A DNA stretch of 64,000 nt from NCBI GenBank assembly GCA_008087055.1, contig VIEA01000001.1:971118-1035117 (forward strand), in the 5' to 3' direction. A program made the position numbers and the translations under genes. Under the pieces are notes generated by a model that was not told the DNA's origin, did not search any database, and worked only from the letters and a program-made list of their open reading frames with translations. Numbering within the stretch: position 1 is the stretch's first letter; every line of letters begins with the position of its first letter. This DNA is from Gammaproteobacteria bacterium LSUCC0096 (GTDB lineage: Bacteria; Pseudomonadota; Gammaproteobacteria; Pseudomonadales; Litorivicinaceae). This document shows positions 22,311 to 48,981 of this stretch, one piece after another.

Positions 22311-22326
22311 GTCAGCTTGGTGTCAG
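22310..22326. promoter_or_regulatory. Candidate TctD box
   Basis: TGTCAG-CTTGG-TGTCAG: two identical 6-base direct repeats with an 11-base period, the spacing preferred by OmpR-family dimers. It lies between the divergent tctD and tctC, touching the tctD start. A TGAGAC/GTCTCA inverted repeat (22346-22365) lies between it and tctC. Confidence 0.45.
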
Positions 22327-22391
22327 GTTATCGTGTTTTTATAGCTGAGACGCATCAGTGTCTCAATTAAAACCATAACAGGAGAGTCCGC

Positions 22392-23369: not shown

Positions 23370-23373
23370 AACC

Positions 23374-23847
23374 ATGGCCCGTATAGATCGCTACATCGCA
23401 TTAGCTCTGCTCGCGTTTTCGATCGGTTACGGGTATCTGGCTTGGGTGCATCCGCTGCTTCCATTTGAAGCACGGATGCCCTTCAAGCCGAATACCATGC
23501 CACTCGGATTAGCCGTCCTAGGAATTCTGTTTTCATCGCTTTTATTGTTGCTACCCAACAATGATGAACCACCGAAAGATGCAGAAGGCTGGCGTGGATT
23601 TGCTTGGAAAGACACCGCACTGCTTATCGGCTTAGCAATTGGTTATGCCATCTTGCTACGGCCCATCGGATTCATTGCCTCGACGACGCTATTTATCATC
23701 TTGTCATCACGTGTCCTTGGCGAAACAAACCTTTTTCGATCGACAATTACCGGACTCATTACCAGTGGGCTTATCTGGTATCTCGTTGATGAAGTGCTCG
23801 GAATTTATCTTGTCGCAACACCTGGTTTTCTCGGAGGTTCATTATGA
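23374..23847 (+). CDS. tctB: TTT transporter small membrane subunit (TctB)
   Basis: 157 residues with four hydrophobic segments, starting 4 bases after tctC and overlapping tctA by 4 bases. Size, topology and gene order identify TctB, the poorly conserved small permease. Confidence 0.88.
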   Translation: MARIDRYIALALLAFSIGYGYLAWVHPLLPFEARMPFKPNTMPLGLAVLGILFSSLLLLLPNNDEPPKDAEGWRGFAWKDTALLIGLAIGYAILLRPIGFIASTTLFIILSSRVLGETNLFRSTITGLITSGLIWYLVDEVLGIYLVATPGFLGGSL

Positions 23848-29680: not shown

Positions 29681-30346
29681 CTATTTAAATACGGGAGGAT
29701 TCGCTAATTGATATCCAAATCCCGTCTTATTTGAAATGACCGACGAACTTGTGACCTCACTTAATTTTTTACGAAGTCTCGAGATTGCGACTTCAAGATT
29801 CGCAATACCTCGCTCATCAAAAGAAATACCGACCACGTCCATCAGCGCGTGATATTCCACACCGGCTTCGCCAGCAAGCGCCATCAGTCGCATCATCTGC
29901 ACTTCACGATCAGTCAAACGAATCTGAGCACTATCAATCCGGAGCATTTTATTTTCGATCACGCCGCTCTGGGTGTGATTCATAGATAAACGCGTCAAAC
30001 GTCGAGCGATAGCCAGTAACTCTTCAGGCTCAAATGGTTTCGCGAGGAACGTCACCCCTCCGGCATGGGTGGCAGCAATTCGGTTCTCCACATGTGCAAA
30101 CGCACTCAAAAACATAATGGGAATCGAAGGCAAGTGACGTGAGATAGATTCAGCGATCTCAATCCCAGACTCGCCAGGTAGCTGAATATCAAGAATCAAT
30201 AAATCAGGAATTGCACCAGCGAGTAACTCTCGAAGCTCGTCACCATCAAATGCTCGAGTGACCTGAAACCCGCCATCAATAATTAACAAATCACTGATCG
30301 CCTCGCCGAGTGCCAAGTCGTCTTCACAGAGATAAATGGTCTTCAT
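29681..30346 (-). CDS. OmpR-type response regulator of the giant-protein operon
   Basis: 221 residues: receiver domain (LCEDDLALGEAI, Asp53 in ILDIQLPGESG, LAKPFEPEEL) and a C-terminal winged helix (RLTDREVQMMRLMA, ISRLRRKLSEV, SNKTGFGYQL). The ATG overlaps the kinase stop (ATGA). It is the last gene of the seven-gene run that begins with the giant surface protein and is the obvious candidate to control it. Confidence 0.9.
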   Translation of the reverse strand: MKTIYLCEDDLALGEAISDLLIIDGGFQVTRAFDGDELRELLAGAIPDLLILDIQLPGESGIEIAESISRHLPSIPIMFLSAFAHVENRIAATHAGGVTFLAKPFEPEELLAIARRLTRLSMNHTQSGVIENKMLRIDSAQIRLTDREVQMMRLMALAGEAGVEYHALMDVVGISFDERGIANLEVAISRLRKKLSEVTSSSVISNKTGFGYQLANPPVFK

Positions 30347-32220
30347 CGATATGCAGTCCGGAAAACAACTTCAATCACAAACTGATCATCAATCATTTTA
30401 CATTTGATTTGATAGCCATTTGCGCGACAAATCTTTTTCAAAATCCACAATCCAAGACCTGTGCCGCGGATGCCTGTGACACGATCCGAGCGCCAATATT
30501 TCTCAAACACATCCGCTGGGTCGGAAATCGGGTAGAGGGTGTGATTTCTGATTCTTAATCCCAAGTATCCTCTTACATCGAAAATGCTTAAGAAGATCCG
30601 AGTATTCGGTGTTCGGTATTTATTGGCGTTTTCAAGGAGGTTACGAATAATTGTCGTAACGACCACCGGATCACTTTGCATCAATGTTTGACCGCGCCAA
30701 CGAAACACCACCTCAGCTGGATTCTCAGTCGTCTGAGATAAGCGATTGATTTCAGCTAAGACAAGGTTTTGCAAATCAACTTCTCGCTCGGTGGTGGAAC
30801 CTGTCACCATCATCTCGAGCATTCGAGTCTGATCCACCACGTGGTCAATATGATTAATTTGAGCACCCACCGCATCGCTCTGTGCAATTTTCCGCGTCAT
30901 CAACTTGAGAGTCGTTAAAGGCGTTTTGATTTCGTGCGTTAGCATTGAAACAAACGATCGCTGATCTTGAAGTTGATCCTCGAGCAGCATTTTCGCTTGT
31001 TTTAATGTTCGGTTCCGAATTTGGGAACGGACATAAAAGCGGCGTTCCAACGATGACCGTGTCAACATTAAGAACATCAGGACAATCATGGTCAATAATG
31101 CATGGAAATAGGTCAGTGATAATTGATTACCAACCCCAAGCCCCGAAACAGCTGTTACCGAGACAATCACAAATAAGCCAGCATAAAAGACCCGGATGCG
31201 TCGCCAAAAAATCCCCACAATTCGGTTGCGAGGCTTCACGATCAAGACCCCAATGAACATGATGAGCGGAATAATGCTGATCATGATGATATTGGTCTGG
31301 AGCGCTTGACGCTGAAACCCAAAGATATATGCGGCGATTAATACAATCGCAGCGAAAGACACGGCTCGTAAAATCAACGATAACAACTTTGATCGTGTTC
31401 CATACTCAATGATCCGAGCATGCGTATAGGCCCCAAGTCCTGTCGCAGACAATGCACCCAGGCTCACAAAATAATCAGATAGTTGATTGGTTTCCGGGTA
31501 ATAGACCCGAACAAGATTGGATAGGCCCAAAAGCAGGATAGACCACGCTGACAGATAGCAACCAACAGCAACTAATATCCCATCACGACTAAAGAGACCA
31601 AAACTCAGACTGGCTAGTGCCCCGAAAAATAGTAATGCGAGCACGAAATATTGAATGCCAGCACCGTGGAATGTTGCGCGAATCAGCTCTGATTGATTGA
31701 GGACATTCACATGGGCTCTGAGATTGCCCGTCCCTGAAAGCATGAGTGTTGAACGACTGGCATTTGAGGGCACTTCAAAGACATAGCTTCCGAAATCAAA
31801 ATCCCAACGTTTAGTTGGTGAATGTGCGACCCGGTCACCCTTCCACTCGACTTTAATCTGGTTATTCCAGGCATCAAAGTGCTTCACTTGGATATAGTCG
31901 GTATAGCTTGGGCCAACAGACAAATAGCGTTGACGGCGAAGAAAGTCAGTATTTGCGTAGATAATATCGAACTCAAGTGAGTCTTTGGTGAAACCGAGAT
32001 TTGCGAATTGGGATTGCCCGATGACCACTTTTTCACCGTTTTGTGAGTAACTCGTAGCCGTGATCGCAGCGATTTCTTGAGAGCGGTCGAATTGATTCGA
32101 TGCGCCGAGCATCAACGCCAAAAACAAAACAACACAAATAAGCGATAGCAGTGAAAATCGATCCCGATACAAATACTCAAGGTTTTCGATTGCACTAGTA
32201 TCGATATAGCGGGCACTCAA
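30343..32220 (-). CDS. 7TMR-DISM histidine kinase
   Basis: 625 residues, TTG start overlapping the stop of the M50 gene. One N-terminal membrane helix (22-40), a periplasmic beta-sandwich sensor domain (about 45-180, 7TMR-DISM extracellular type 2 style), seven membrane helices (about 188-390), a coiled linker, HisKA with MLTHEIKTPLTT (His429) and an ATPase domain with NLLENANKY (528-535) and GTGLGLWIL (586-594). DISM domains often bind carbohydrates or other small ligands. It pairs with the response regulator by overlap and probably couples an outside signal, or secretion status, to giant-protein expression. Confidence 0.9.
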   Translation of the reverse strand: MSARYIDTSAIENLEYLYRDRFSLLSLICVVLFLALMLGASNQFDRSQEIAAITATSYSQNGEKVVIGQSQFANLGFTKDSLEFDIIYANTDFLRRQRYLSVGPSYTDYIQVKHFDAWNNQIKVEWKGDRVAHSPTKRWDFDFGSYVFEVPSNASRSTLMLSGTGNLRAHVNVLNQSELIRATFHGAGIQYFVLALLFFGALASLSFGLFSRDGILVAVGCYLSAWSILLLGLSNLVRVYYPETNQLSDYFVSLGALSATGLGAYTHARIIEYGTRSKLLSLILRAVSFAAIVLIAAYIFGFQRQALQTNIIMISIIPLIMFIGVLIVKPRNRIVGIFWRRIRVFYAGLFVIVSVTAVSGLGVGNQLSLTYFHALLTMIVLMFLMLTRSSLERRFYVRSQIRNRTLKQAKMLLEDQLQDQRSFVSMLTHEIKTPLTTLKLMTRKIAQSDAVGAQINHIDHVVDQTRMLEMMVTGSTTEREVDLQNLVLAEINRLSQTTENPAEVVFRWRGQTLMQSDPVVVTTIIRNLLENANKYRTPNTRIFLSIFDVRGYLGLRIRNHTLYPISDPADVFEKYWRSDRVTGIRGTGLGLWILKKICRANGYQIKCKMIDDQFVIEVVFRTAYR

Positions 32221-34358
32221 AACTGAAGTTCCTTAATTGATATCGAGTACATCACCCTCCACCACTTTTGCGCGAACGAGATCTGATCTTGTTCAGCAAT
32301 AACCATTGCTGATTCACGTATCACAGATTGTTCTGAATTGGTGTTGAGTAACTCAAACGTGACCCGATGATGCGGTGCGAATAGCTTTGGTTGCTCAGAA
32401 TTCGCAGAAGGCGCCGACTGATTCATATCGATCAATTCACCACCCCAAGATGATAATAACTCGGGATATTCAACAGTCTGTGCGGCTACGTTATCGACTG
32501 TCGCAACGCGAAGTGGCTGCGAACCGAGAGCACCTACCCCTCTGATCAGAGTCGCTGAGTCACCAGGACTTAGCGCGTCTCTATATTCAGTTGGGAGGTA
32601 GCCAATAACGAGACTCTTCTGCAATGGAACGATTTCGAAGAGTAATGCACCCTTTTCGATAATCTGACCGAGATGGGGCGTCGCATTGCCTCGGATCTGA
32701 CCACTTGTCTTGGCTCGAATCTCAAGATTAGCCAGTCGTTTATCGATGGAGTCGAAGGTCTCTTGATAGCGAGCAATTTGACGCATGAGGACAAGCTGCC
32801 CCTCTTGGCCAGAACTCGCTACCGATGCATCCTTGAGTTCATCAGCATATCGCTCCAAAAGAATTTGGGTACGTTGCCGCTCGAAAAGAAGTTGCTGATC
32901 CCTCAATCGAGCGATTAACTGGCCTTTCTCAATCCATTCGCCTTCACGAACAAACAGCTCGTTAAGTTCAGCAGATTCAGGGGCAAATACTGGCTGATAG
33001 TCCGCATCAGTTAATACCACAGGAATATGGACTCGATTGACTTGCGGCACGAACACAGCGCCAATTAAAGCGACCGCTATCAACAACGAAAGACCACTTG
33101 TCGACGTCCAGCGCATCCCTAGCGCATTTTTCACAACATAAATGGCTTCGCGCGCGATAGGCAGCAGGATGAAGTATAGGATCTCGATTACAAAAAGAAT
33201 GATTCCCAGTACTTTAAACACCAGTTGATAAACCAAAACGGCGATACCCAAAAACAGGAAGAAGCGATAGATCCACGTCCCAAATGCATACAGCGTAAGC
33301 GTTCTTCTAAGAGTTGGTTCAAATTGCTCGGGTGGGGATTCCTGGAATCCAAAGAGAAAGCGCCTCAGTCTCCACTTTGCCATCGCAAACGATCTGGTTT
33401 GTAGATTTTCAACACCGACCAGATCGGACATCGCAAAATAGCCATCAAATCTTAGAAACGGCGAAATGTTGACAATGACCGATGCAATCAGCGATGTCGT
33501 TGCAAAAACAAAAGCAACCGATCTAACGAGGTCAGAATCTGATACCGCCCAAATGCCGCACGCAACTAATCCGATATGGAACTCTGTCGCTATGCCTGCG
33601 ATTGCAATTTTAAAACGTTGATAACGATCAGTAAGACGCCATGCATCGGTCACGTCGGTATATAACACTGGGAACAACACTAAGAATGCTATCCCCATCG
33701 ACGAAACACGCGCGCCATAGCGGGTTGCCGCATAGGCGTGCCCGAGTTCATGCAGTGATTTCACGACAGCCAAACAGACTGCATATAAAGCAGCGCCCTC
33801 CCAACTCAGTAACAAACTAAAGGTTGACCAAAACTGATCGAATTGCGTCACGATTGAGCCAACACCGAACAGTCCGAATAACCAAATGCCCCATACAACC
33901 AACGGCAACATCATGAGTTTTGGGACCCAGGCTGTGTTGCGAAGGAATTGTTGTGGACGCATCAAGGGGATGCGGAAGAACAAATAATTGTGAATCAATC
34001 GAGAAATCCAAGATTTTTGCTTGGATTGATGTTGTTTTAAGAGGTATTGAGAGGCGACCTCAGAATCTAACTGGATCAGATTTTGACTCGCTAGAAACGA
34101 AACCAACTCCCTCAACTCAGTATCTGTTACATCGCTCAGATCACCATCCAATCCATCACGAAACTCATCCGCATTTGCACCAGGAACCCATACACCTAAT
34201 AAATGGACAATCCGCGACGAGATTTTGAAATAACGATGCTGCAATCCGTCATAAATCATCCAGCTTCGTTCAAACGTGATTGGATCTTGATCACCTTCAA
34301 TGAGCTGCAGATCCTCTCTAAGTCTTGGAAGAATTAACTGCTCTTGAGACGGGTTCAT
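32217..34358 (-). CDS. PqqD-like / M50 site-2 protease / HlyD adaptor fusion
   Basis: 713 residues. Residues 1-100 resemble a PqqD-type winged domain (LREDLQLIEG, RYFKISSRIVHLL). Residues about 145-440 are multi-spanning membrane with both M50 motifs: HELGH at 203-207 and NISPFLRFDG at 297-306 (NxxPxxxxDG), so the zinc site looks intact. Residues about 445-713 form a periplasmic biotinyl-lipoyl/coiled-coil adaptor of the HlyD type (LFVREGEWIEKGQLIARL, a long helical hairpin, EIVPLQKSLVIGYLP). It is directly adjacent to the GAF-HlyD gene (TAA then ATG). It may process or thread the giant protein across the inner membrane; no ATPase is found in the operon. Confidence 0.88.
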   Translation of the reverse strand: MNPSQEQLILPRLREDLQLIEGDQDPITFERSWMIYDGLQHRYFKISSRIVHLLGVWVPGANADEFRDGLDGDLSDVTDTELRELVSFLASQNLIQLDSEVASQYLLKQHQSKQKSWISRLIHNYLFFRIPLMRPQQFLRNTAWVPKLMMLPLVVWGIWLFGLFGVGSIVTQFDQFWSTFSLLLSWEGAALYAVCLAVVKSLHELGHAYAATRYGARVSSMGIAFLVLFPVLYTDVTDAWRLTDRYQRFKIAIAGIATEFHIGLVACGIWAVSDSDLVRSVAFVFATTSLIASVIVNISPFLRFDGYFAMSDLVGVENLQTRSFAMAKWRLRRFLFGFQESPPEQFEPTLRRTLTLYAFGTWIYRFFLFLGIAVLVYQLVFKVLGIILFVIEILYFILLPIAREAIYVVKNALGMRWTSTSGLSLLIAVALIGAVFVPQVNRVHIPVVLTDADYQPVFAPESAELNELFVREGEWIEKGQLIARLRDQQLLFERQRTQILLERYADELKDASVASSGQEGQLVLMRQIARYQETFDSIDKRLANLEIRAKTSGQIRGNATPHLGQIIEKGALLFEIVPLQKSLVIGYLPTEYRDALSPGDSATLIRGVGALGSQPLRVATVDNVAAQTVEYPELLSSWGGELIDMNQSAPSANSEQPKLFAPHHRVTFELLNTNSEQSVIRESAMVIAEQDQISFAQKWWRVMYSISIKELQF

Positions 34359-35645
34359 TTAGATACCCAAACGCTGAACCACAAACAACAGTGGTCTACG
34401 GAATAAGTAATACAACAATGAAACATCATCTGAGTACACTCGGGCACTTCCTCTTACACCAAGGCCAACATCAGTTGGCTGCTCAGGAAACCTGACCAAC
34501 ACCTCATAAGACATCACATTCAATGGAGAAGGTTTGGGCGCATATGAGAACGAAGCAATTTGTCCCTCGATTGGCTTATCAGGACGGTCGTCCAAGAAAA
34601 TCCGCACAGTATTCCCAATCTTGAGCGCCACGGCATCTTTGACCGGAACAAATACAGACGCTTCAACAGATGATGGATCAGAGATCTCAAGGACACGCTG
34701 ACCCGCTCTAACAGGTCGACCGATCCAACTGTCAGACTCTTCCAATCGAACGATCCCGGCACGCTCTGCAATTATTTGTGAACGACTTAATCTGTCTTCA
34801 GCAATTTGTGCTTCCAATAGACGAAGGCGGTATTCAGCCTCTTTCGAAGCCACAGCACGTCTTGCCTCTGCGTCTCGAAAACCCTGCTTCTGTACTCGAT
34901 TAAAGTCTGCTTTAGCAACCTCGGCCGCTTGAACAGAGACTTCTAAATCTGCCTCCAATTGCGACTTTTCAAGGGAAAATAGTGGATCGCCGACGGTCAC
35001 CGAAACACCATCATCAATGATCAAATCAGCAACAATGCCATCGAACGGAACCGTCACGATTTGTGACTGTTCTGCCTCAATCTGTGCCTCACCCAAGACT
35101 GTCATCGGCACCTGAATGACAGAAGCCACACCGAGCAGCCCAAGTAGTGCAAATGTGGATACCAGACCGCGCCTTTTAACTCGTCGCTCACGCTGATTAC
35201 GCGTTGCCAAGGCCCAAACAGAACCGATCGTTTGAGCAATACCCATCTCTCCGTGGCTGAATGGGTCATGGCGCGCAAACCCCAGAACCGCCTTGATCGA
35301 ACCATTCGGGTCAAAAATGGGGATCAAAAGAAGCGCAGGTGGACAAAGATCGTTCCAATCTGTAGCGAGACCCTCCGACAGATTCGCCACGTTCACTACA
35401 AATGGCTCAGGCCCCATCCGGTCAAGCTGCTCTGAGCATACAGATTCAAGCCATTGGACAAAGGGAACGTTGCGATCTACGACCGGCACATGAGAGACGG
35501 CAGCAACCTTCGCTGTCTGGTGATGGATTTGAACGAGGCTGCAATGCTCACAGGCAACTAATGCTCGAGCTTCGTTCACTACAAGTAACGACAGCTCTTT
35601 GAGGCTTTTTGTTTGAGCAGCGCGTGCGAGCAAGCCTTCGATCAA
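34359..35645 (-). CDS. HlyD-type adaptor with cytoplasmic GAF-like domain
   Basis: 428 residues, TTG start with AAGGG upstream that overlaps the previous stop. Residues about 10-150 look like a GAF-type domain (VACEHCSLVQIHHQTAKVAA, LLLIPIFDPNGSIKAVLGF). A membrane helix at about 160-180 is preceded by a positive stretch (RERRVKRRG). Residues about 185-428 are a lipoyl/HlyD adaptor (VTVPFDGIVADLIIDDG, AGIVRLEESDSWIGRPVRAG). This places a ligand-sensing domain on the cytoplasmic side of a periplasmic adaptor, an uncommon layout. Confidence 0.85.
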   Translation of the reverse strand: MIEGLLARAAQTKSLKELSLLVVNEARALVACEHCSLVQIHHQTAKVAAVSHVPVVDRNVPFVQWLESVCSEQLDRMGPEPFVVNVANLSEGLATDWNDLCPPALLLIPIFDPNGSIKAVLGFARHDPFSHGEMGIAQTIGSVWALATRNQRERRVKRRGLVSTFALLGLLGVASVIQVPMTVLGEAQIEAEQSQIVTVPFDGIVADLIIDDGVSVTVGDPLFSLEKSQLEADLEVSVQAAEVAKADFNRVQKQGFRDAEARRAVASKEAEYRLRLLEAQIAEDRLSRSQIIAERAGIVRLEESDSWIGRPVRAGQRVLEISDPSSVEASVFVPVKDAVALKIGNTVRIFLDDRPDKPIEGQIASFSYAPKPSPLNVMSYEVLVRFPEQPTDVGLGVRGSARVYSDDVSLLYYLFRRPLLFVVQRLGI

Positions 35646-35650
35646 CTGAA

Positions 35651-36370
35651 CTACCCTTCCGTAACCGGAATTTCTAGTGTTGCTGAACCACTCATCCCTG
35701 GCAGCGCACCAATACCTTCTGGAATCGCAACGCTGACTTCAACCGTCTCGCTCACCGGATCAATCTCGACACCAATACGCGCGATTGTTGTTGGAATTTG
35801 CGTATCGATCTCCGCGATATAGACAGTCACTGCATCACCTACCGATAAACTCTTCAATGCCGCTGATGGCAAAGAAATGCGCCCTTCGAGTGTATCTAGA
35901 CGAATCAGCTTAAACAGCGGTGTACCAACAGAAACCATTTCATATTGATTAACCTGACTCTCAGCTACAACACCAGGCCAGGGTGCTCGAATGGTGCATC
36001 GACGCTGATTCAATTGGGCGATATTTGCTTCGGCTTTGGCTTGTTTGAGATCCGCTTCAGCCAATATGACATCCAATTGGCTCGCTGACTTGAGACTTTC
36101 TAAGCGCTTGATGTTGTCATGGCGAGCCTGTGCACGGTCGACATCCGAACTAACGCGGTCCACTTCTGCATCATGTAAACGACAATCAAAACGAATAAGG
36201 GTCTGACCCTTTTTAACTGCATCACCCTCACGCAATTGATATTTGGCAATAGTCGCTCCGATCTCGGAACTGAAAGTCGCCTGAGTCGAGGGTTCAAGAA
36301 CCACAGGATACTCGGCGAAGCATGACGCTGAAGCCAACGCCATGCTTACCACAACTGCAAAGCGGATCAT
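35651..36370 (-). CDS. Short periplasmic adaptor (HlyD/RND MFP type)
   Basis: 239 residues with a Sec signal (MIRFAVVVSMALASASCFAE) and an adaptor body: lipoyl half (ATIAKYQLREGDAVKKGQTLIRFD), short helical hairpin, second lipoyl half (CTIRAPWPGVVAESQVNQYEMVSVG) and beta-barrel. It lacks a membrane anchor. It begins immediately after the TolC gene stop, so it probably connects the outer-membrane channel with the two membrane-bound adaptors. Confidence 0.86.
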   Translation of the reverse strand: MIRFAVVVSMALASASCFAEYPVVLEPSTQATFSSEIGATIAKYQLREGDAVKKGQTLIRFDCRLHDAEVDRVSSDVDRAQARHDNIKRLESLKSASQLDVILAEADLKQAKAEANIAQLNQRRCTIRAPWPGVVAESQVNQYEMVSVGTPLFKLIRLDTLEGRISLPSAALKSLSVGDAVTVYIAEIDTQIPTTIARIGVEIDPVSETVEVSVAIPEGIGALPGMSGSATLEIPVTEG

Positions 36371-39145
36371 TTAGTCCACATCAACCAAAGCAACGGAATT
36401 GTCAGGTTGATCAGTGACCGTCAAAGCGACTTCGAGAACTTTCTCACCACCATCTTCGTCAATCGCTGCCAAACGAACTTTTTTATTACCTTGAATGTAC
36501 GGCGTTCCGTCTTCTTTAGTTTTAATCGCAACCCGGCCAGTCACAGGCTCAATCTCTAAGAATTCATACATTGAATTGTTGAAGTTCGGTGGCGCCCACT
36601 TATAGTCCAAACGAGTCCCTTCTGGATCCACAACGTCTGCTAAATTCAAAAATCCAATGTAGCGACCGGCTGATGGAGAGACTGTTACAGCCAACTCAGA
36701 ACCCTGAAGAACAGGTTTGTCGTTTTGACCATGGACTGTAATCGCGATCTCTACCGGGTCACTCATGGCTCCATGCTCGTCATAGAGCTCAACTTTAAAG
36801 CGCTCTACTAATGTTTCACCTTCGCGAAGCTTCTGGAAACGCTCTTGCCTTGGATTGATAACAACTTTGTTGTACTCGTCCAGCGTGACACCTTCTGGAA
36901 CATCTGAAAGTGGATCGAATCGATACTTCACAGGCTTACTGCGTTTGTCGGGGTCATGTGCACGAATCCATACCGACTTACTCGCCGTGTCGTCTTCGTT
37001 AAAAGTCACAGCATGATAAGTTGAGGAGACAACTGGTGCGTCGTTCACGCCTTGGACCAGGAAGTCCACATCAACCACACTCCGCTCACCATTCGGGTCA
37101 ACGATTTGGAACTTCACGAGATCTGACAACTGCTCACCTTCGTTCAGCGCCTTGATTCTGTAATCTTCCTGCGTTGGATCGTAACGCCACATTCCATCAC
37201 GAGAGATTGAGAACCCTTTCGGACCTTCGAGGAGATCAAAGACCAACAGTTCCCCTTCCACATCGGTTTGCGGGAATTGACCAGTCACTAGAGAACCCGC
37301 CTCAACTTTGATGTCATCAAGCGATGATAAAGTCGGGACATCGTTTGTGTCTTCAAACATGAAGCGGACAACGTCCTGCGAAGATAGCCCCATATCATTT
37401 GAAGCGGTCAGAATCACATCCAGGTGTTCAATACCACCCGGTGGGTTACCCTTAAACGTGCGGGTTTCAGCATCGAGCGTCCACCAAGTTGGTAGCGCTT
37501 CGCCATTCACCTGACGCGCGTTATAGGCAACGTTTCCACCCAATACAAACGTTTCGGTATTAAACGTAAATGCATGATCGCCTGGGCCTTCATAGACTTC
37601 TTGAACTTGATCAAATAGCGGTGCAGCAACGAGACCAAGACGCCCTGCATCCCAATCCATCAACTGGTGCGTCAATGCTTTAGCCAGTCCATCGACCGTG
37701 ACGTCAGGCACCGTTGCTGGGAATGGATCCAAGCCAGCGGTGACGAAGATACGGCCGTAACTGTTCTGAAGATCTGCATACGCAACATCACGACGAACTT
37801 CAGCCAGCATTGTTGTAAATTCTTCACGAATGAGATCAAGCTCTGTGTAGTTTTCAGCACCAACGCGCGCAGCCATTTGCGCCCGGATACGCTCAACGAC
37901 ATCGAGATATTTCACAGCATTTTCATAGGCTTCAATCGACTGACCATAAGCCACATGCGATAGATACACCTGACTTAAGACACCTACTGTCAGCGCCATA
38001 CGCTGCTCTTCTGCGAGTGACTTAGCTGCTTCGGCATCACGCTTTTGCGCTGGGTACCGAAACACGTTCAAGAGGTTTACACCTACTGTAGCGCCAAGCG
38101 AAGTCCAATCATTATTTAACTGGAACATATTACTGTCGTAATACGCTCCAGCTGACAGCGACAAGTTAGGCATCAACTGCAAAAGCGCAGCTGTACCCTC
38201 TTTATCAGTGATACGACGTGTGTACTGCGCTTCAGCCAACTCAGGACGGAACGCAAGGGCCGCGCGCTCCATCGTCTTGACGTCATATTTCAGTGCAGGC
38301 ATCGCACCAGGGCCGTTATCTGACAAACGATATTCTTCGTCTGGAGACATCCCCATCAAGCTCGCCAATGTGTTTTTCGCACCGACGAGATCCTTGTGCA
38401 AACCATCGAGGTTTCGCTGAATATCCAATAAGTCTCGTTGGAACTGCAGCGCCTCGAGTGGATTTTCCAGCTGTTCAAGCTCGATTTGACGCGAATTTTC
38501 GATAGCAATTGATACACGAGATGCCAAAGGCTCAACGCGATCAAGAAGCCGCTGGGCAGATACGGCTCTCCAATACGCTGTGCGAACATCTTGCATTAGG
38601 TTATGGACAGCTTTGCGCTCACGCTCTTTGGCGATGAGATATCGGTCTGTCCCTTGCTGGGCACGAACATATGACAAACCGAAATCCAACACACTCCAAT
38701 TCAATACCGCACTTCCTGTAGTGTTTTCGCGCTCTGAACCGGTAGATAAATCCGTATCACTCTTGCCAGCGATAAAACCCGTGGTATTTACATCGTTGAT
38801 GGTGACTGAAGATGCCCACGGCAAATTACTTCTTTTTGAGTAGCCGCCTGATACAGCAAGCTGTGGAAGCATATCGAAGGATGTCATTTCCAAGCGAGAC
38901 GCCGATAATGCTGTCTCCAACATCTGAACACGACGCTCACGGTTATACAGAAGCGCTCGTGAAATCGATTGCTCCAAGGTGAGATCACCGCTCGTTGGTT
39001 CGTTATCTGCATACAGTGCTTCGCGATCCTCCTCAGCAAGCTTCAACAGATCCTGCCGCGAGAAGAAATCTGGACTGCTCGAACAGCCCGTTAACACTAC
39101 TAATGAAAATACACTGACGAGACTCAGCTTATTTTTCCATTCCAT
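36371..39145 (-). CDS. TolC-family outer-membrane lipoprotein with cadherin-like C-terminal repeats
   Basis: 924 residues from ATG 39145 (AAGGG 7 bases upstream), giving a lipoprotein signal with lipobox VVLTGC (Cys21); an ATG at 39169 is less likely. Residues about 50-490 are a TolC/OEP fold (two helical repeats: LTLEQSISRALLYNRERR, MLPQLAVSGGYSKRSN; then LMPNLSLSAGAYYDSN). Residues about 510-924 are an extra region of four or so Ig/cadherin-like modules (LPTWWTLDAETRTFKGNPPG; FSISRDGMWRYDPTQEDYR; VNDAPVVSSTYHAVTFNEDD; DEDGGEKVLEVALTVTDQ). TolC proteins usually end shortly after the helical domain, so the extension is notable and should lie in the periplasm. Confidence 0.87.
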   Translation of the reverse strand: MEWKNKLSLVSVFSLVVLTGCSSSPDFFSRQDLLKLAEEDREALYADNEPTSGDLTLEQSISRALLYNRERRVQMLETALSASRLEMTSFDMLPQLAVSGGYSKRSNLPWASSVTINDVNTTGFIAGKSDTDLSTGSERENTTGSAVLNWSVLDFGLSYVRAQQGTDRYLIAKERERKAVHNLMQDVRTAYWRAVSAQRLLDRVEPLASRVSIAIENSRQIELEQLENPLEALQFQRDLLDIQRNLDGLHKDLVGAKNTLASLMGMSPDEEYRLSDNGPGAMPALKYDVKTMERAALAFRPELAEAQYTRRITDKEGTAALLQLMPNLSLSAGAYYDSNMFQLNNDWTSLGATVGVNLLNVFRYPAQKRDAEAAKSLAEEQRMALTVGVLSQVYLSHVAYGQSIEAYENAVKYLDVVERIRAQMAARVGAENYTELDLIREEFTTMLAEVRRDVAYADLQNSYGRIFVTAGLDPFPATVPDVTVDGLAKALTHQLMDWDAGRLGLVAAPLFDQVQEVYEGPGDHAFTFNTETFVLGGNVAYNARQVNGEALPTWWTLDAETRTFKGNPPGGIEHLDVILTASNDMGLSSQDVVRFMFEDTNDVPTLSSLDDIKVEAGSLVTGQFPQTDVEGELLVFDLLEGPKGFSISRDGMWRYDPTQEDYRIKALNEGEQLSDLVKFQIVDPNGERSVVDVDFLVQGVNDAPVVSSTYHAVTFNEDDTASKSVWIRAHDPDKRSKPVKYRFDPLSDVPEGVTLDEYNKVVINPRQERFQKLREGETLVERFKVELYDEHGAMSDPVEIAITVHGQNDKPVLQGSELAVTVSPSAGRYIGFLNLADVVDPEGTRLDYKWAPPNFNNSMYEFLEIEPVTGRVAIKTKEDGTPYIQGNKKVRLAAIDEDGGEKVLEVALTVTDQPDNSVALVDVD

Positions 39146-39171
39146 GACTATGCCCTTGTATTTGCCCATTA

Positions 39172-42100: not shown

Positions 42101-45100
42101 TTCGAAGTGACCGAATAGACAGTCGCCGGACTCGTTGAATCTTGAACGACTGACAAAGTCATCACTTTCGTGTTTGTGTCTGGATCGTCTGAGTCGTTTG
42201 AGTACTGAACGGCTCGAATGATCGACTCAACCACCCAATCATTGATTGGATATGGATCTTCAGCACGAATGTTATCGATTGTCATCGAGGCACCCGCGGC
42301 TTTGCCACCGGACTTATCGAAGGTGCCAGTAATGAAAACAAAACGATAAGAGCCATCATGGTCGATCGTGACCGAAGCCGTATCAGATACGCTCTTACCA
42401 GTATCGTTTAAAACCATTTTGTAGAGATCGCCCGAAGAATCAACCAAATACCCAGCTACGTGATACCAGTCACCAGAGCCGTCTGCCGAGTAATCCAACT
42501 TAAGGACGTCGCCGGCACTAGCCACAAATAAGTCACTCATTACACCAGGCCCGTGAACGACCCCATATGACTCGATATTCATCGATCCAGTGTAAAGAAA
42601 AAGGGAATCAGCTTCACCGGTAATGGCAGCGGTTCTACCGGTCGGTCCAGAGTTAAAAGCGGTATTGTCATCCTGCTGAATGCTCGGTGCTGACGCCATC
42701 TTTTTCCAATCCGCGACATCATCATCGAGGTCATAAGGCGTCTCGATGCTCACACCTCCTACGGTAATTCGCGAACCAAAATCGACTCGACCCGAGTAAA
42801 CAGTCCAGCCCGAGCCTGGGGAACCTAGAGCTATATCGCTATTAAAATCACCATTGGTTATCGGTGATGAACCCGGAATACTTGCGTCAGTTAAGAGGTG
42901 AATACGAAGCTTCGTACCCCCCTCCCCATCGTATGTTGAATCAATCTGACCAACCTGAATCCAAGCGGCACTCGCACCCTCAGCAGGCTGCGTATCGTAA
43001 TACTCAACAAAGCGACCGTTGACCCGCACATCACCGTGAACAGGATTAGCAGGATCAGCGGAATTGGCGACCACACTGAACACATCACCCGTAGAATTCC
43101 GATCGGCATCACCATTCGCGGTAATTTCAAAATCGATATAGCCGGCTTGACCTGACACATTGAACAGGCCTTCCCAAATATGTGATGCAAAATTGGATGC
43201 GGCTAACTCGACAGGCGATGCTTGTTCCACATAGGTCTCGTCCGCAATTGCAGAAAGATCTGGAGCACCTGCATTATCAAGCTCAAAAGTAAAATTGACG
43301 CTATTTGATGGGGCTCCATTGGTATCTACAGCGCTCCAACCGAATGTATCAGTGCCTGTAAAACTGGAACGAACCGTATAGACCAAACCACCCAAGCTCG
43401 CCAAGGCAATGGTATCGTCAACAGCAACACTTGATCCATTGAGCGTTAAATAACCGCCAGTTGGCAATGAATTGATTTTAATCGACGTCCAACCGTAAAC
43501 ATCCGACGTGTAGCTGAATTCATCTGTAAAATCTGCTGCTGCGAATGTATGGGTTGAGCCTGTCTCAATGTAATAGTGCTCTGTACCGTTAACGACCACA
43601 ACAGGCGGGTTGTAAACCATGTCAACGGTGGTATTAGCTGTCGTTTCTTTCTTACCGTCAGACACACCCCAAACGATTGTGCGGTCAGCAGCCGGATAAC
43701 TCACGTCAGTCGATGTAAACTCAATCGAAGCAAGCGCGGCATCCCATTCAGCATCCGTCGCTCCACTTGCACTTGAAAGCGTTAAAATTCCAGTGCCTGA
43801 TACGAAGGTTCCCGTTATATCGCCCATCGTGTTAGCGTCATATGTATATTTAAGCGAATCCGTACTTGAGGAATAGTTAGTTGTGATCTTGACGTACGCG
43901 GAGTCAATATCACTATCGGTATCAGCAACACTAACTCCAGAAGCAAGCGATACTGTTGAATCAGTACCAACGTTAAACTCTCCATCACCCGTTGGCGCAG
44001 TAACTGAAACAGTCGGTGCAGCATTTCGCGAAACGGCTAATTCAAAAGTACCGCCCACAGGTGTGTATTCGGTCGCGGAGTTATATTCGACGACGTAGCC
44101 AGCAATGCTATCGGATTGCACAGGATAGTCATTCCACTTACCAGAACTTCCCTTGAAGTGTGCATAATCCTCATTGCCATTATAATTATTTGGCTCATTA
44201 GAATCCCAGCTCGCATACTGCCCTGCAACTACTGAACCAAAGTCACCGGTAATCGTAGCGCCTACCGGCGGAGTTGCTGGCCCTTGGAAAAATTGAGTGT
44301 TGGCCTCAGGCCCGGTAGCCCATTTCCAAGTACCTTCAGTAATACTGTCTGTCGCACCCATCCATGCGTCGGCGGCCAACTTAGATTGCAAGAACGTATT
44401 TTCGACCTCTGACGTCACGGTCACGAGATAACCTGTCAGGGTGTTACCACCCTGATCAACCATGGTCTTTGCGGCAGCATCAGTAACAGCATCGGTCCAG
44501 GTGATTCCGGGATCAGCAACATACTCGTAGTAATGCGATTCGCCGCCGAAGTTTAAAGACACATGCGGCGACACTTGGAGAACAATCGAGCGGCTCGCCT
44601 CGCTAGGATCTGTTTCCGTATTCTTGAAAGTTACCGTGCGTAGTAATGCCTGATATTCAGCTCGAGTCGCTGACCCTGTGAATGACAACCGTCCCGAGGC
44701 AGAGTTGTATGATGTCGTAATACTAGCTGACGTCCCAGTCACGTCGAGAACGTCGCCCGACTGCACATTGTCGATATACAGCTGCAACCCTGTGAGGGTG
44801 TCGCCCAAACTACTCGGTAAATTAGCATATGGCATCAAAAGCACCGGCTGGTCACCTTCGACATACTCGTCTGCAGTCGGGCCTAGAACAGTCAAGTACT
44901 CAACATTAATTTTTGATCCATCAACTACTTCATTAATTCCATCACTTACCGTCCAACTGAGTTCTCGAATACTCGGACCAGTTTCGGCTGTTGTAGCGAA
45001 CGTAACAGCACCGAGCGCATTTTCCCAATGCGTCATTGTTGCGGTTTGATCAGAGCTGGTCAGGACGAGAGTACCTGTCGCCGAGTCATATGCAGACGCA

Positions 45101-48100
45101 GCGATATTACCCATCGATTCGTTATCGTTAGTGAACGCAAGAACATCACCGGCGGTGAGATTTTTCGCTATGGTAACGCTAACCGATTTTAGCAGACTAT
45201 CAACATCTGTAACTGTAAATCCGGGGCCTGCAGATATTGCGGTCCCGGCATTCTGAGAATACGTCAATCCATCAAGTCGCAATGTGGAATTCACCCACTC
45301 TGGATCGTCATTTAGAGTAAGGTTAGCCCCTGAAGGCACCCGATTAGATAGCGTGCTTCCAGACCCCTCATCTAAGTTCCAATAGCCGATCAACCCCCTT
45401 TCTGTTCCCTGCAACTTTTCGTTGGTTAATTCGGCCATTGCTGCATCATTCAGAGAAATATTCCAAATCGATATCTCATCCAAAGACCCAGCAAAGTAAC
45501 CTGGAGCTAGGTCATCTTGGACGTATCCACCCACTTTGAAATTTTTTGTACGGGAGTCAGAGTCAGAACCATCATATTTCACCGAAGAAACGTGGGTTCC
45601 TTCTGCCACGAATTCTCCATTAACGAAAACCTCCACTAAACCCGCCACCGAATCACCTCGGATTCCAATGTGAGACCACTCTCCATCGGATATTTCAGGA
45701 ACCTCAATGCTGACACCGCCCGCGGTTTTATTCCAAAACACCAGAGTTGGTGTGCTTACACCCCCTTGTAAAAAAATCTCAAAAGTATCATTTTGGCCGA
45801 CGAGACTCTGAAGTGAGCCCGTTTTCGCATTATCAGGATTAATCCAAAAAGAGACCGTGAATGTTGAAAGATCATTTAGAAGTGGTTCGCCAGCGTCCAG
45901 GTAATCACCGGACCCATCAAAATCTAGAGAATATGGATTCGACGAGGTAATCGAGAAATTGGGATCATCATCAACATTCCCAACGGTAATGACAGCCGCC
46001 TTGCGATCAGACCACGACCCGCTAACGTAACCCTCCCAGAGTATTGAGTCGATACCAGAAAATTCGTCATCTGGCACATAGGTCATTAAAGCCACGTCAT
46101 CAATTGCGATTTCTTGATCTTCGTCAACCAAAGTACCCGACAAATATAGTGATCCGTGGACCGGCCCCCGGGTAATTCTCACATTCTCAAGATCTTTTCC
46201 GCCATACACGGACGAAAAGTCAGAGGCCTTTAAACTGGTGGTCGTATCTTCGAGACCGGCTATCGAAGTGGTTTTAGATACAGCCAAAGAATTTTTATAA
46301 GTATCAAAATCAGTATAGAAGAAAGCTCCCGTTAGTGGGTTTCTTCCGAGAAAAGTTGGGTTCTGATAAGTAACCGTATCGACTTCGACTACCCGCAAAT
46401 CCCAGGTAGTCACATCTTCAGAACCGTCATAGGCAACAAGCCCTGTCGTTAAACTGTACGATCGATAACCACCAGAATCTGAGGACAACGTTTCAGGTCT
46501 ATTCGTGTAGTCGCCAAGTATCGGATAAGCAGAGGCGTCACCATCCTTAAAGCGTGTCACAAATAAATGATCACCGTCAGTCTCAAGGCCATGAAAATAT
46601 TCTAGAAATTGATCATCATTAATGAGTGTGATCGACGAATCAAAAGTAATAGAAGACCGATCCTCAGAAACGTTGTAAAACGAAACAACAGCTTCGTATT
46701 TTCCGGAAACAACGTTGTATGTGTTTTCCCCCAAAGCTGCTAAACGGCCATCTCCCATACCCAGAATATTCCAGGTATTCCAACCTTCACGAATGGGCAA
46801 AGGATGAGTGCCGTCCTGAGTCACTGTAATTAATGTCGCAAGATTATCTACCGGGCGAGCATATAGAAGATCATCAGATGTATCCGCTAATGCTGTGCCA
46901 TTGTTATTTCTGTAAAACAAATATCCATTCGTATAGGTCAGTGTATGTTGCGCTCCAGGTAGCTCAGGAGCAGATACCGACTTAACGTATGCACCAGCCA
47001 TATCGTAAACGCGAAGATTAAGACCGTTGTCGTTTACGTAATAATATGTGCCATCGCTCGCCACACCGTAGGCCTGTGTAATTCCCGAACCATTGGGCAT
47101 TAGCTCTAGAGCTAAATATTCAATGGTGCTCTTTGAGATCACCGCAGGATTAGTAGGAGCGCTAATATCCGGGGTTATGGAAATATCAACCTCCGCGACG
47201 ACCGGGCTAAGCCCATCAACAGATGTTCCAACAAAAGAAACCACCCGAGTATCAAGAGATTGATTTGCATTGATGTTGTAATATTCCACCGCCTCGAGCG
47301 CAGAAGCCCATTCGGCTTCTGTGGAGACATTTTCGGAAGTAAGCGACAAAACACCTGATGAGTCATCATAGCTCGAGAGTATATATCCCATCGTAGATTC
47401 ATCGTTTACAAACGATAAGTAATCGCCTTCCTCAAAGTTAGAAGTAATGGACACTGTTGCTGAGGATATATTTTTTACAGATACCGAAGAAACTAAATCA
47501 ATCGGCAACCCTGAGCCTTTGGAGTAATCCCTCAAAACATTATCGACCGCATATATTCTAGGACCGCCAATCGTTTTACCATCTTGAGGAATCGCACTAA
47601 AATCCCGCTCAGTGGTGTCGCTGAATGTGAGGCCAGATAACATCGCCAAATCATCGGCGTCACCAATATCCGAATCATTGGCACCTAAAGTCGTCAACTG
47701 CACACTAGTAATAGTTCTATGAGAATACAAAGACAAATCAAACTTCCGGACGTCGAGACGTTGAAACGAATCGGCGCCTGCGTCTCCCTCTTCATAGTTA
47801 CTCCACCAGACAGTTACGTCAGATGAAGTCAGATCATTAGAATCCTTTTCATTAAAATCTCGAGTCGTTTCTTGGGCGGTAGCGAAAAATTCTATAAAGC
47901 TAACTTCACTTTCGGCAGGCGCAAAGTTGACTCGCACTTTATACTCAGCCACTCCAGCAGCATCACCAGAAAAATTGTTAAGCAGCGCGTACATCGTTTT
48001 CTGCCCCGACAAGTCACCCACGTCGATTGTCACAGACTCATTAGCCGCGCCTGGACTAAGCACATAACCTAAAACACCGTTATTTGGATCATTCGGATTA

Positions 48101-48981
48101 CCCGAATCATATGCAAATGTTGTAAATGGGATACCCGTACCCGTATTACCTAACTGATCGCTTCCAACGGGAGCACCAAAATCTTGCAATGGCGCATACC
48201 CTGTTATTTGAAGTGTTTCGCCGGATAAGTCGACTTGCGTAAAAGTCTCGGTACTCAAAGAGGTCTGCAGAACATCCGCCAAAGCAAGCTCATCTGCATC
48301 TACTCGGCCTTCAGACACCTCCAAATCACTGTCACCTGCCCCACCAGTTTGATCATCTGATGCTGCAATATCCGCTTCGGTAACTAGCGATAGCTTTTGG
48401 ATGAACTCTCGACCATCGTCAGTCGCGCCAAGATCACAAGCGTAGAATAAGATGTCGCCTGAGTCAGTCAGAGCTGAACCCAATGCAGACAAATCTGCTC
48501 GGTATGTTTCAAAATTGTTTGATGTATAGGTCTCATTACCAAGCAATAGCTCACCATCCGCACCGTGAGAAATCACATGGATGGCATCCACCTGCTCAAA
48601 TGAACCAGTGATTTCAGCCATATACGCGAACGCATCCACATCATTGGAAATCACAAACGTCCGATCAGCAGTAATTTCTTCAACCGATGACAGATCGACT
48701 CGACTATCAATGAACACTAACTCATTGCGTCGATCTGACTGCGTACTCGAGGTTGGCGCAAGATACAACGCGTCTGATTCAGAAGGATTGGTTTGTTCAC
48801 TGGACTCTCGAGTCGTCGTTAGACCGAGTTCAGACAGCAAGGTTGGACTGCTTTGGGTTAGCGTCTCAATACCATCGACTACAGCCGCACCATCAAGCAT
48901 GACGCGGGGTTCAAGCATGATGAAGGGCTTTGATCGCAGATTTTTCAGAAGCTTTGAGTTCAATCTATTCAGTCCAACCAA
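39172..48981 (-). CDS. Giant multidomain surface/secreted protein (LEPR motif, DUF4347, LamG, C-type lectin, cadherin-like)
   Basis: 3269 residues from TTG 48981; ATG at 48918 (Met22) is an alternative. In order: LEPRVMLDG (23-31); DUF4347-like domain (about 87-240) with HVISHG (135-140) and FYACD (179-183); long beta-rich region; LamG/concanavalin-like domain (about 1017-1227); repeated about 110-residue modules (SYDxxTGxLxLTS...W..AL..V.F pattern, at about 480-600, 1255-1370, 1370-1480, 1660-1780); C-type lectin-like domain (about 1475-1640; YVADPGITWTDAVTDA, DSNEPNNYNGNEDYAHF); cadherin-like/He_PIG modules (about 2445-2640); a Gly/Ala/Ser/Asn-rich disordered region (about 2640-3095); a final cadherin-like module (LPDWIKIDAETGKLTGEPP) and a basic tail (RFTEQLKRSVRAVA). 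No RTX nonapeptides and no classical signal peptide. It heads the secretion operon and is presumably its substrate, acting in adhesion or carbohydrate binding. Confidence 0.88.
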   Translation of the reverse strand: MVGLNRLNSKLLKNLRSKPFIMLEPRVMLDGAAVVDGIETLTQSSPTLLSELGLTTTRESSEQTNPSESDALYLAPTSSTQSDRRNELVFIDSRVDLSSVEEITADRTFVISNDVDAFAYMAEITGSFEQVDAIHVISHGADGELLLGNETYTSNNFETYRADLSALGSALTDSGDILFYACDLGATDDGREFIQKLSLVTEADIAASDDQTGGAGDSDLEVSEGRVDADELALADVLQTSLSTETFTQVDLSGETLQITGYAPLQDFGAPVGSDQLGNTGTGIPFTTFAYDSGNPNDPNNGVLGYVLSPGAANESVTIDVGDLSGQKTMYALLNNFSGDAAGVAEYKVRVNFAPAESEVSFIEFFATAQETTRDFNEKDSNDLTSSDVTVWWSNYEEGDAGADSFQRLDVRKFDLSLYSHRTITSVQLTTLGANDSDIGDADDLAMLSGLTFSDTTERDFSAIPQDGKTIGGPRIYAVDNVLRDYSKGSGLPIDLVSSVSVKNISSATVSITSNFEEGDYLSFVNDESTMGYILSSYDDSSGVLSLTSENVSTEAEWASALEAVEYYNINANQSLDTRVVSFVGTSVDGLSPVVAEVDISITPDISAPTNPAVISKSTIEYLALELMPNGSGITQAYGVASDGTYYYVNDNGLNLRVYDMAGAYVKSVSAPELPGAQHTLTYTNGYLFYRNNNGTALADTSDDLLYARPVDNLATLITVTQDGTHPLPIREGWNTWNILGMGDGRLAALGENTYNVVSGKYEAVVSFYNVSEDRSSITFDSSITLINDDQFLEYFHGLETDGDHLFVTRFKDGDASAYPILGDYTNRPETLSSDSGGYRSYSLTTGLVAYDGSEDVTTWDLRVVEVDTVTYQNPTFLGRNPLTGAFFYTDFDTYKNSLAVSKTTSIAGLEDTTTSLKASDFSSVYGGKDLENVRITRGPVHGSLYLSGTLVDEDQEIAIDDVALMTYVPDDEFSGIDSILWEGYVSGSWSDRKAAVITVGNVDDDPNFSITSSNPYSLDFDGSGDYLDAGEPLLNDLSTFTVSFWINPDNAKTGSLQSLVGQNDTFEIFLQGGVSTPTLVFWNKTAGGVSIEVPEISDGEWSHIGIRGDSVAGLVEVFVNGEFVAEGTHVSSVKYDGSDSDSRTKNFKVGGYVQDDLAPGYFAGSLDEISIWNISLNDAAMAELTNEKLQGTERGLIGYWNLDEGSGSTLSNRVPSGANLTLNDDPEWVNSTLRLDGLTYSQNAGTAISAGPGFTVTDVDSLLKSVSVTIAKNLTAGDVLAFTNDNESMGNIAASAYDSATGTLVLTSSDQTATMTHWENALGAVTFATTAETGPSIRELSWTVSDGINEVVDGSKINVEYLTVLGPTADEYVEGDQPVLLMPYANLPSSLGDTLTGLQLYIDNVQSGDVLDVTGTSASITTSYNSASGRLSFTGSATRAEYQALLRTVTFKNTETDPSEASRSIVLQVSPHVSLNFGGESHYYEYVADPGITWTDAVTDAAAKTMVDQGGNTLTGYLVTVTSEVENTFLQSKLAADAWMGATDSITEGTWKWATGPEANTQFFQGPATPPVGATITGDFGSVVAGQYASWDSNEPNNYNGNEDYAHFKGSSGKWNDYPVQSDSIAGYVVEYNSATEYTPVGGTFELAVSRNAAPTVSVTAPTGDGEFNVGTDSTVSLASGVSVADTDSDIDSAYVKITTNYSSSTDSLKYTYDANTMGDITGTFVSGTGILTLSSASGATDAEWDAALASIEFTSTDVSYPAADRTIVWGVSDGKKETTANTTVDMVYNPPVVVVNGTEHYYIETGSTHTFAAADFTDEFSYTSDVYGWTSIKINSLPTGGYLTLNGSSVAVDDTIALASLGGLVYTVRSSFTGTDTFGWSAVDTNGAPSNSVNFTFELDNAGAPDLSAIADETYVEQASPVELAASNFASHIWEGLFNVSGQAGYIDFEITANGDADRNSTGDVFSVVANSADPANPVHGDVRVNGRFVEYYDTQPAEGASAAWIQVGQIDSTYDGEGGTKLRIHLLTDASIPGSSPITNGDFNSDIALGSPGSGWTVYSGRVDFGSRITVGGVSIETPYDLDDDVADWKKMASAPSIQQDDNTAFNSGPTGRTAAITGEADSLFLYTGSMNIESYGVVHGPGVMSDLFVASAGDVLKLDYSADGSGDWYHVAGYLVDSSGDLYKMVLNDTGKSVSDTASVTIDHDGSYRFVFITGTFDKSGGKAAGASMTIDNIRAEDPYPINDWVVESIIRAVQYSNDSDDPDTNTKVMTLSVVQDSTSPATVYSVTSNIDVTAVIDAPTLTGNPTLPAITEDASPAGTLISSRFSSVFDDGDNDGLAGIAISGDASNSGEGVWQYSFDGAAWSDVGSVTTTSALMLDASTLIRFLPAANYHGTPGPLTVFAVDDGISQTFSAAGALVYFDTVANNAGKTAVSLESHVSYSSYSLTHSVTSVNDSPVLDSRPSDISIIQGDTFNTDFSGYFSDVDGDTLTFAATDIPAGLAFDTSSGILSGTSTTDDIHTVSLTATDAGGLSDSGQITFTVNPDLPTRTGIAAPSSVNVRQGQDYEFDFNSLWTSKHASTTGFSIDVIPPGLEFNTTTGVLTGRVSVAGPYSVTVTVTNSFNHTASVQFSMIVTPLPVSRDSAAEAGARDTINKNSEIITTNQEARYAGAFGAQGSNGGLVSNQSRNDSAQSTIQSLTQTGLQAAINPQSVFNGGYGTSTPSNGSSNIAGSNVITSSSIVGNNASNLSGSSLPGSVGGIQSPLGGATGNAVAGGGSTVAGSGVSPGSLGAPGSAIGGPDATVNASTAGGLNALAQSGAAQSNGTDGGSENFGFNAPPLGGVGGPSAAERSGEGDSDFAGFAGPGSTGLAGSTRADGGSGEPNGSLQTNGLAGGPGASAAQDGAATGGDGGIGSLAFAPQAGPGSVANQASAVAGPTSTSGDAGSAQPTVNGAPGTVSPGANASGGDTGSADAAASSGGVESAQGADAASGDAQASAGSNQQVADGSGESTPVEGVANAQITRGPVESVGEAGTAPSNAQITAQSANPNASPGGDAQASGGDADAQTATAEQATAQRSTESVIDPTTGVVDAKVSNSLMKMGTTMTRQIDRVVVQVGADGQVSSSTLARNDAENPSGLQIVRVVQEGRSIEADLADNNNAQVQEYQAVLVAPDGSQQPLPDWIKIDAETGKLTGEPPAGVDSINLAIKAVDVTGESRVIILNLNVSDGATEAPAGDNNVGSVESLKSHGTERFTEQLKRSVRAVA

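Follow-up and report, generated by a model that had tools for sequence, protein, structure and literature searches.

The familiar comparators for the locus described here are the type I secretion systems, HlyB/HlyD/TolC and, for giant adhesins, LapBCE, whose cargo commonly, though not universally, carries RTX repeats. The closest described relative is the module reported by Kamneva, Poudel and Ward in 2015 (PMC4452313), a secondary set of SecA_DEAD, HlyD, M50 and GAF proteins from which the ABC protein is missing. In the portion of that paper used here, SecA was proposed as the ATPase and M50 as the pore, HlyD/biotin-lipoyl proteins were included with TolC sometimes present, the biological role was given as unknown and no giant cargo was named. 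The subject of the present analysis is a seven-gene operon in a 64,000-nucleotide stretch of Gammaproteobacteria bacterium LSUCC0096 (contig VIEA01000001.1, positions 971,118 to 1,035,117; hereafter the window), in which the gene for a protein of 3269 residues with a DUF4347 domain is joined to genes for TolC and three HlyD-type adaptors, one of them fused to an M50 protease. The operon is a SecA-less variant of this module, which is published though uncharacterised, and it can now be linked to a probable cargo and an address tag. An earlier note on this DNA had taken the machine to be of an undescribed kind, a claim that gives way to the SecA-bearing sister module in the consulted portion of the 2015 paper.

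Compared with that module, as far as the same portion describes it, the window likewise has M50-HlyD, GAF-HlyD and HlyD proteins side by side and no ABC exporter, but it has no secondary SecA gene, its M50 protein falls in a separate clade split at 100/100 (type A below, the SecA-associated clade being type B), and a tagged giant is adjacent. With type I secretion it shares HlyD-type adaptors, TolC and a large repetitive protein in the same operon, whereas an ABC exporter and RTX repeats (0 matches in the window giant) are lacking and an N-terminal tag is present instead; unlike MacAB-TolC and other tripartite pumps, the operon has no MacB or RND subunit. Residues 31-398 of the M50 protein match the daptide intramembrane metalloprotease model NF041824 (E 4e-49), although the score of 167.7 lies under the cut-off of 300 and the window protein adds a C-terminal HlyD part. 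No report tying the module to DUF4347/LEPR giants was found in the open-licence PMC literature. In the portions of the papers found, the module has no stated cargo or signal, and the DUF4347/LEPR link, together with a tag letter that predicts machine type, supplies both in testable form. Many bacteria may use such an ABC-less kit to export one enormous surface protein, and the match between tag and kit makes the route testable.

The operon is a block of seven open reading frames (ORFs) on the minus strand at 29681..48981 (all features given below for the operon lie on this strand), with coordinates unchanged from those first given. As the earlier note had it, the genes are tightly joined, with junctions between -4 and +5 bp (-4, -4, 0, +5, 0 and +2 bp in the order response regulator, histidine kinase, M50 fusion, GAF-HlyD adaptor, short adaptor, TolC and giant). 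The giant (39172..48981; ORF and Pfam) carries the N-terminal tag, DUF4347, Lectin_C and He_PIG repeats, and is followed by a TolC/OprM-like outer-membrane protein (36371..39169) with OEP repeats in Pfam and, by eye, a lipobox-like LVVLTGC. Next come a short periplasmic adaptor of 239 residues (35651..36370; Pfam HlyD, with RND_mfp above cut-off) with a hydrophobic N-terminal segment at residues 1-19, a GAF-HlyD adaptor (34359..35645; Pfam HlyD) with GAF, a single hydrophobic segment (161-179) and HlyD, the GAF match being just under the Pfam cut-off (21.6 vs 22.4), and a PqqD-like/M50/HlyD fusion of 713 residues (32217..34358; Pfam Peptidase_M50 and HlyD_3). HlyD protein families were told apart using profiles built from separate seeds. 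Using Pfam, no ABC or RND gene was found in the operon, in agreement with the earlier description of a channel and three adaptors lacking both. The HExxH metal site of the M50 fusion (residues 203-207; 33738..33752) is invariant in 31 of 31 aligned members, as are H203, E204, H207 and the downstream D305; the downstream Asp of M50 proteases is a metal ligand, and because of this invariance the putative protease is probably live, judged from the aligned sequences.

A relative of the M50 fusion was found in 31 of 115 genomes, the window genome included. A contig scan confirmed at least 588 of 592 candidate stretches, and the best 80, closest to the window M50, were kept. Among these best 80 of at least 588 loci, 79 had GAF-HlyD no more than 100 bp from M50 and 68 had the short adaptor. 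TolC was seen in 49 (in 44 of the 63 loci that extend 5 kb or more upstream), while a SecA-like gene and a full-length ABC exporter were each found in 0 of the 80 in the locus DNA read, many loci ending at contig ends. A SecA-like gene stood on the M50 strand in 10 of 39 other M50 loci, taken from relatives in the order and from plasmids (one plasmid twice, L033 and L075; a doubtful M50, L074; L031 left out). DUF4347 was detected in 17 of the 31 M50 genomes and in none of 14 named control genomes. Of 229 genomes of the class, 30 have M50, 25 have DUF4347 and 18 have the two together (Fisher p 1.2e-13, or 6.5e-13 with the window genome removed); the M50 and DUF4347 samples were treated as one set of 229 genomes because their counts and handles agree. 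The M50 fusion and DUF4347 are linked across genomes on this check, and the occurrence of adaptor/M50 sets near DUF4347 giants elsewhere, mentioned in the earlier note, was borne out in many genomes. The M50 gene also occurs in SAR11-group, Nitrospira, Azospirillum and enterobacterial records and on Escherichia coli plasmids.

In the M50 tree, the type A clade has 41 rows, window included, and the type B clade 18 rows, with a SecA-like gene at the locus in 12. SecA_DEAD, cross-linking and P-loop domains were identified in the SecA-like proteins scanned. In the 10 that were aligned, Walker A (GEGKT or GEGKS) and a DEAD-type box are retained, and the sequences end at about position 700 of the 937-residue SecA of the window genome. 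Among 40 genomes searched for SecA (31 with M50 and 9 without), a strong second SecA (E below 1e-70) was found in 10, all 10 adjacent to a type B M50, and none was found in the 12 type-A-only genomes or the 9 M50-free genomes. A dedicated SecA hidden in the window genome (1.94 Mb, 99.4% complete) was considered and rejected: one true SecA lies elsewhere, and a second PF07517 match is weak (4.9e-6). On the Methylosinus plasmid pMSC49a, a LamG giant, DUF3467, GAF adaptor, PqqD/M50, SecA-like protein, adaptor and TolC are encoded in a row; the small DUF3467 gene between giant and adaptor of a type B cassette lies at L187 7298-7618. Type B is also represented in the laboratory strain Methylorubrum (Methylobacterium) extorquens AM1 (META1p2399-2402 in PMC4452313).

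The tag of the window giant, LEPRVMLDG, occupies residues 23-31 (48889..48915) in the aligned N-termini. The consensus in partner giants is LExRxx[LF]D, and its L, E, R and D are invariant in 31 aligned N-termini. The pattern [LM]ExRxx[hydrophobic][DS][GA] was found within 140 residues of the start in 44/44 DUF4347 ORFs (293 to 4459 residues, many of them truncated where the locus stops), compared with 1 of 8800 shuffles, a count that is partly built in because the profile that picked these ORFs was seeded with N-termini including the tag. It was also found in 11 of 1668 other ORFs of at least 200 residues, all 11 being ORFs over 900 residues in the same loci. A fairer count comes from 31 regions picked by Pfam PF14252 alone (G181, a weak match, left out), where the tag was present in 18 of 25 from M50 genomes vs 1 of 6 from those in which M50 had no match (p 0.02); the tag was unreadable in L202 (contig end) and L210 (internal copy). 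A Sec-like hydrophobic stretch was found near the tag (from 40 residues before to 25 after it) in 1 of 44 giants and in residues 1-60 of 64 of 91 short adaptors. By eye, Sec-like starts were seen in seven untagged DUF4347 proteins (L193, L205, L206 and, from genomes without an M50 match, L213, L215, L216 and L217), of which L213 also has a chance-looking VETRVALSD beside its Sec-like start. Neither tag nor Sec-like start was seen in L204 and L211 (M50 genomes) or L218 (no M50 match), and L214, from a genome without an M50 match, has a D tag.

The letter after the hydrophobic pair of the tag follows the machine type. On the first maps it was D in 48/48 type A partners and S in 7/7 type B partners, using a pattern that allowed only D or S at this place; an open pattern on the same maps gave 8 further ORFs, none with a DUF4347 match, and no DUF4347 ORF with another letter. 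The letter rule was predicted beforehand, 31 further DUF4347 regions were then fetched and read using the open pattern, and the tally took in the regions whose tag could be read and whose genome gave a single M50 type. The letter was D in 4/4 of type A (L191, L197, L198 and L209; genomes G049, G169, G229 and G232) and S in 12/13 of type B (L188, L189, L190, L192, L194, L195, L196, L199, L200, L201, L207 and L208; genomes G022, G112, G122 twice, G165, G184, G194, G207, G219, G275, G291 and G302). Type labels came from profile scores for the class sample, from the M50 tree for G022, G049 and others, and from the locus map for G112. In L212, from a genome with both types (G060), the letter is S, which agrees with the prediction from the type B locus, the nearer of the two; L212 stands outside the 12/13 count. 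A tag letter that follows the machine, together with Sec-like starts in untagged proteins, is expected if the tag is an export address for the machine.

DUF4347 lies at residues 88-234 of the window giant (48280..48720; Pfam 2.8e-34). Its structure model matches Tce1 and CHAT, and the domain is modelled as a caspase-like clan CD fold with a His139 and Cys182 dyad assigned from alignment position, making it a putative protease. Relative to clan CD proteases (CHAT, caspase, legumain) and the Pseudomonas type VI protein Tce1, the window domain differs in standing near the N-terminus of a giant. Cys182, predicted to be catalytic, is the only cysteine of the window giant, and exactly one cysteine, the predicted catalytic one, is present in 29 of 44 DUF4347 ORFs, the window's included; a caspase-like fold, often with the only cysteine of a protein thousands of residues long, would be placed at the front of an exported giant. 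The NCBIfam LEPR-XLL model (NF012209) gives no match to the window giant despite LEPRVML at residue 23, and matches the giant of L065. At the other end, FTEQL (residues 3257-3261; 39199..39213; pattern search) fits the pattern [FLM]xxQ[LIV] of type A giants. This pattern, picked by eye from the same giants on which it was counted, occurs in the last 60 residues of 35/52 type A giants (shuffle mean 5.4) and in 33/46 giants directly upstream of TolC, adaptor or GAF-HlyD (shuffle mean 4.6), and could be a putative second export or anchoring signal. In L071 and L140 the giants have a different ending, a hydrophobic segment and then PAWxxxDP, which may be a membrane anchor.

On balance we lean towards reading the window operon as type A, the branch without SecA, of a widespread export module that depends on TolC and works stepwise on the adjacent giant, which is very likely its cargo. 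The giant, which has no Sec-like signal, would be marked for export by the conserved tag LExRxx[LF]D. At the inner membrane, the tag would be read by the PqqD/RRE-like end of M50-HlyD, the GAF end of GAF-HlyD or both, a step suggested by the way the tag varies with the machine type. As in their families generally, the three adaptors would dock to TolC through their HlyD parts and form a conduit, and the M50 site and/or the caspase-like DUF4347 may remove the tag during or after export, either freeing the protein or fixing the giant at the surface. Energy would come from the dedicated truncated SecA in most of type B; in the window, where no dedicated motor is linked, a general motor, most likely the housekeeping SecA, may be used, which is the weakest step. 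The kinase and regulator would control the operon. The earlier suggestion that the M50 fusion takes the place of the inner-membrane component is conjecture. A more specific scheme, which we consider possible but somewhat doubtful, is a secretion system outside the numbered types. In it the N-terminal tag would address the giants and be recognised by a PqqD/RRE-M50-HlyD receptor, much like the leaders of peptide antibiotics. Passage through adaptors and TolC would be driven in type B by a motor derived from SecA and in type A by a borrowed motor or by none dedicated to it, after which the caspase-like domain would clip its own protein behind the LExR arginine.

Several observations weigh against these proposals. 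The single type B exception to the letter rule has A instead of S (L203, G318), and five DUF4347 regions in M50 genomes are untagged (L193, L204, L205, L206 and L211), one of them with a type A M50. The tag counts come from related sequences and are hence not independent events, and shared ancestry could be the source of part of the pattern between tag and machine. In the class sample, 12 of 30 M50 genomes have no DUF4347. Another residue stands in place of the putative catalytic His in 3 of the 31 N-termini aligned (L125, L131 and L148). On an Azospirillum plasmid (L031 19926-22160), the M50 fusion has no GAF-HlyD, adaptor or TolC adjacent; a tagged DUF4347 giant lies about 10 kb from this M50 gene. 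Six type B rows have a locus without SecA (L064, L070-L073 and L063, the last truncated by a contig end), so a SecA motor is not obligatory even in type B. The ABC genes beside the SecA-less L070 were considered as a replacement motor and rejected as importer-like (ABC ATPase, FecCD permease, binding protein and MFS gene), and L071, also a SecA-less type B row, has a similar ABC layout.

It is unlikely, in our estimate, that the giant crosses the inner membrane via SecYEG using an unusual signal, with the adaptor/M50/TolC set serving only processing and outer-membrane passage. A SecA-type motor in the sister clade and the one true SecA of the window genome would suit such a route, but no hydrophobic segment was found in the window giant and the DUF4347 proteins that look Sec-routed by eye carry no tag. 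The dedicated SecA, moreover, lacks everything past about residue 700 of normal SecA, the region that holds parts working with SecY. A neighbour by chance is far less probable still: the M50/adaptor set would then export or mature something else, for example a peptide, as the below-cut-off relation of its M50 part to the daptide-maturation protease (NF041824, 4e-49) might suggest, and against this stand the co-occurrence, the linkage and the matching of tag and machine. Linkage and co-occurrence also led to rejection of a chance neighbourhood of giant and cassette.

An unlinked ABC exporter supplying the inner-membrane step, which would make the locus a type I system with a remote ABC gene, is likewise thought rather improbable, a little more so than passage via SecYEG. 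In its favour, the combination of TolC and adaptors is that of type I systems, type A giants carry a C-terminal motif where type I cargo often has a C-terminal signal, and at one of the 39 other M50 loci (L034) a type I ABC gene lies on the opposite strand, about 4.8 kb away from M50. Against this, the best 80 of at least 588 loci hold no full ABC exporter in the DNA read, and the window giant has no RTX repeat. Outside the operon, the window genome has four PF00664 exporters, none of which scores up to an NCBIfam cut-off for type I. Three of them resemble MsbA, CydD and PglK and are encoded next to a competence (ComEC-type) gene, cytochrome bd and a LIC12162-family transferase, respectively. 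The fourth is a generic ABC exporter (L036), whose presence would favour a remote gene. Strong copies of L036 (E below 1e-200) turned up in 14 of the 24 relatives searched, and because 13 of these 14 had no M50 match it is hardly dedicated to the window operon. The genome outside the operon also gives three strong RND matches and one weak, and a single MacB_PCD match near the MsbA gene, which may be LolC/E.

The export module favoured above is also found in E. coli. An IncF-type plasmid carries a five-gene type A set (L075 8830-28581) of giant, TolC, adaptor, GAF-HlyD and M50-HlyD, the giant having 4459 residues, the tag LESRQLFDG and DUF4347. Of 5426 E. coli genomes, 22 have the four machine genes at 80% or more of their length, with 21 of 25 places on plasmids. 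The annotation of the 33 kb read around the plasmid set shows neither an ABC exporter nor a second SecA, so if the set works there the host supplies energy otherwise, or none is needed. The type A module or its machine genes also occur on Citrobacter plasmids and some E. coli chromosomes (H42-H44), and on a Variovorax plasmid (L032 19962-30912) type II secretion genes stand directly after a type A cassette. G060 (L212, L233 and L234) has an open frame of about 10,900 residues with the tag MEPRYLLSG near its type B locus, and two type A loci too.

Two domain labels of the earlier note came out weaker than stated. The PqqD/RRE-like N-terminal region of the M50 fusion (residues 1-113; 34020..34358) is a tentative assignment from PqqD matches in relatives and the strand and helix order of the model: PF05402 (PqqD) is matched in 4 of 31 aligned members, the window protein not among them, and in the Methylosinus M50 protein over cut-off (1.6e-6), and strands at 18-21, 33-37 and 42-46 followed by helices fit PqqD in order. 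A sequence search of this region against solved structures found nothing, and in the fold search of the window M50 model all matches were taken up by the HlyD part. The sensor histidine kinase (30343..32220; Pfam HATPase_c) has a DISM-like region under cut-off (16.9 vs 22 bits) and HisKA just under it (23.6 vs 26.9 bits); the kinase at the same position in L040 has clear DISM domains and gives no phmmer match to the window kinase at 1e-4. With the OmpR-like response regulator (29681..30346; Pfam Response_reg and Trans_reg_C) this kinase had been taken as built-in regulation, which is no defining trait of the cassette, regulator and kinase both standing beside it in 4 of 80 maps (L114, L177, L178 and L182). 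L114, from the marine type strain Marinobacterium iners DSM 11526, has consecutive genes for an adaptor, a tagged DUF4347 giant, GAF-HlyD, M50, histidine kinase and response regulator.

The C-terminal extension of the window TolC (about residues 500-932; 36371..37672; Pfam He_PIG and Cadherin_4), with He_PIG and VCBS/cadherin-like domains, adds about 430 residues, many cassette TolC proteins being near 500 residues, and its LPTWWTLDAETRTFKG stretch is similar to LPDWIKIDAETGKLTG, which lies close to the giant's end. The window genome holds two TolC-family proteins, the second adjoining uroporphyrinogen decarboxylase and DNA polymerase III alpha genes. Elsewhere in the window (20294-25340), a Tct-like tripartite tricarboxylate transporter was seen by eye next to its own two-component pair.

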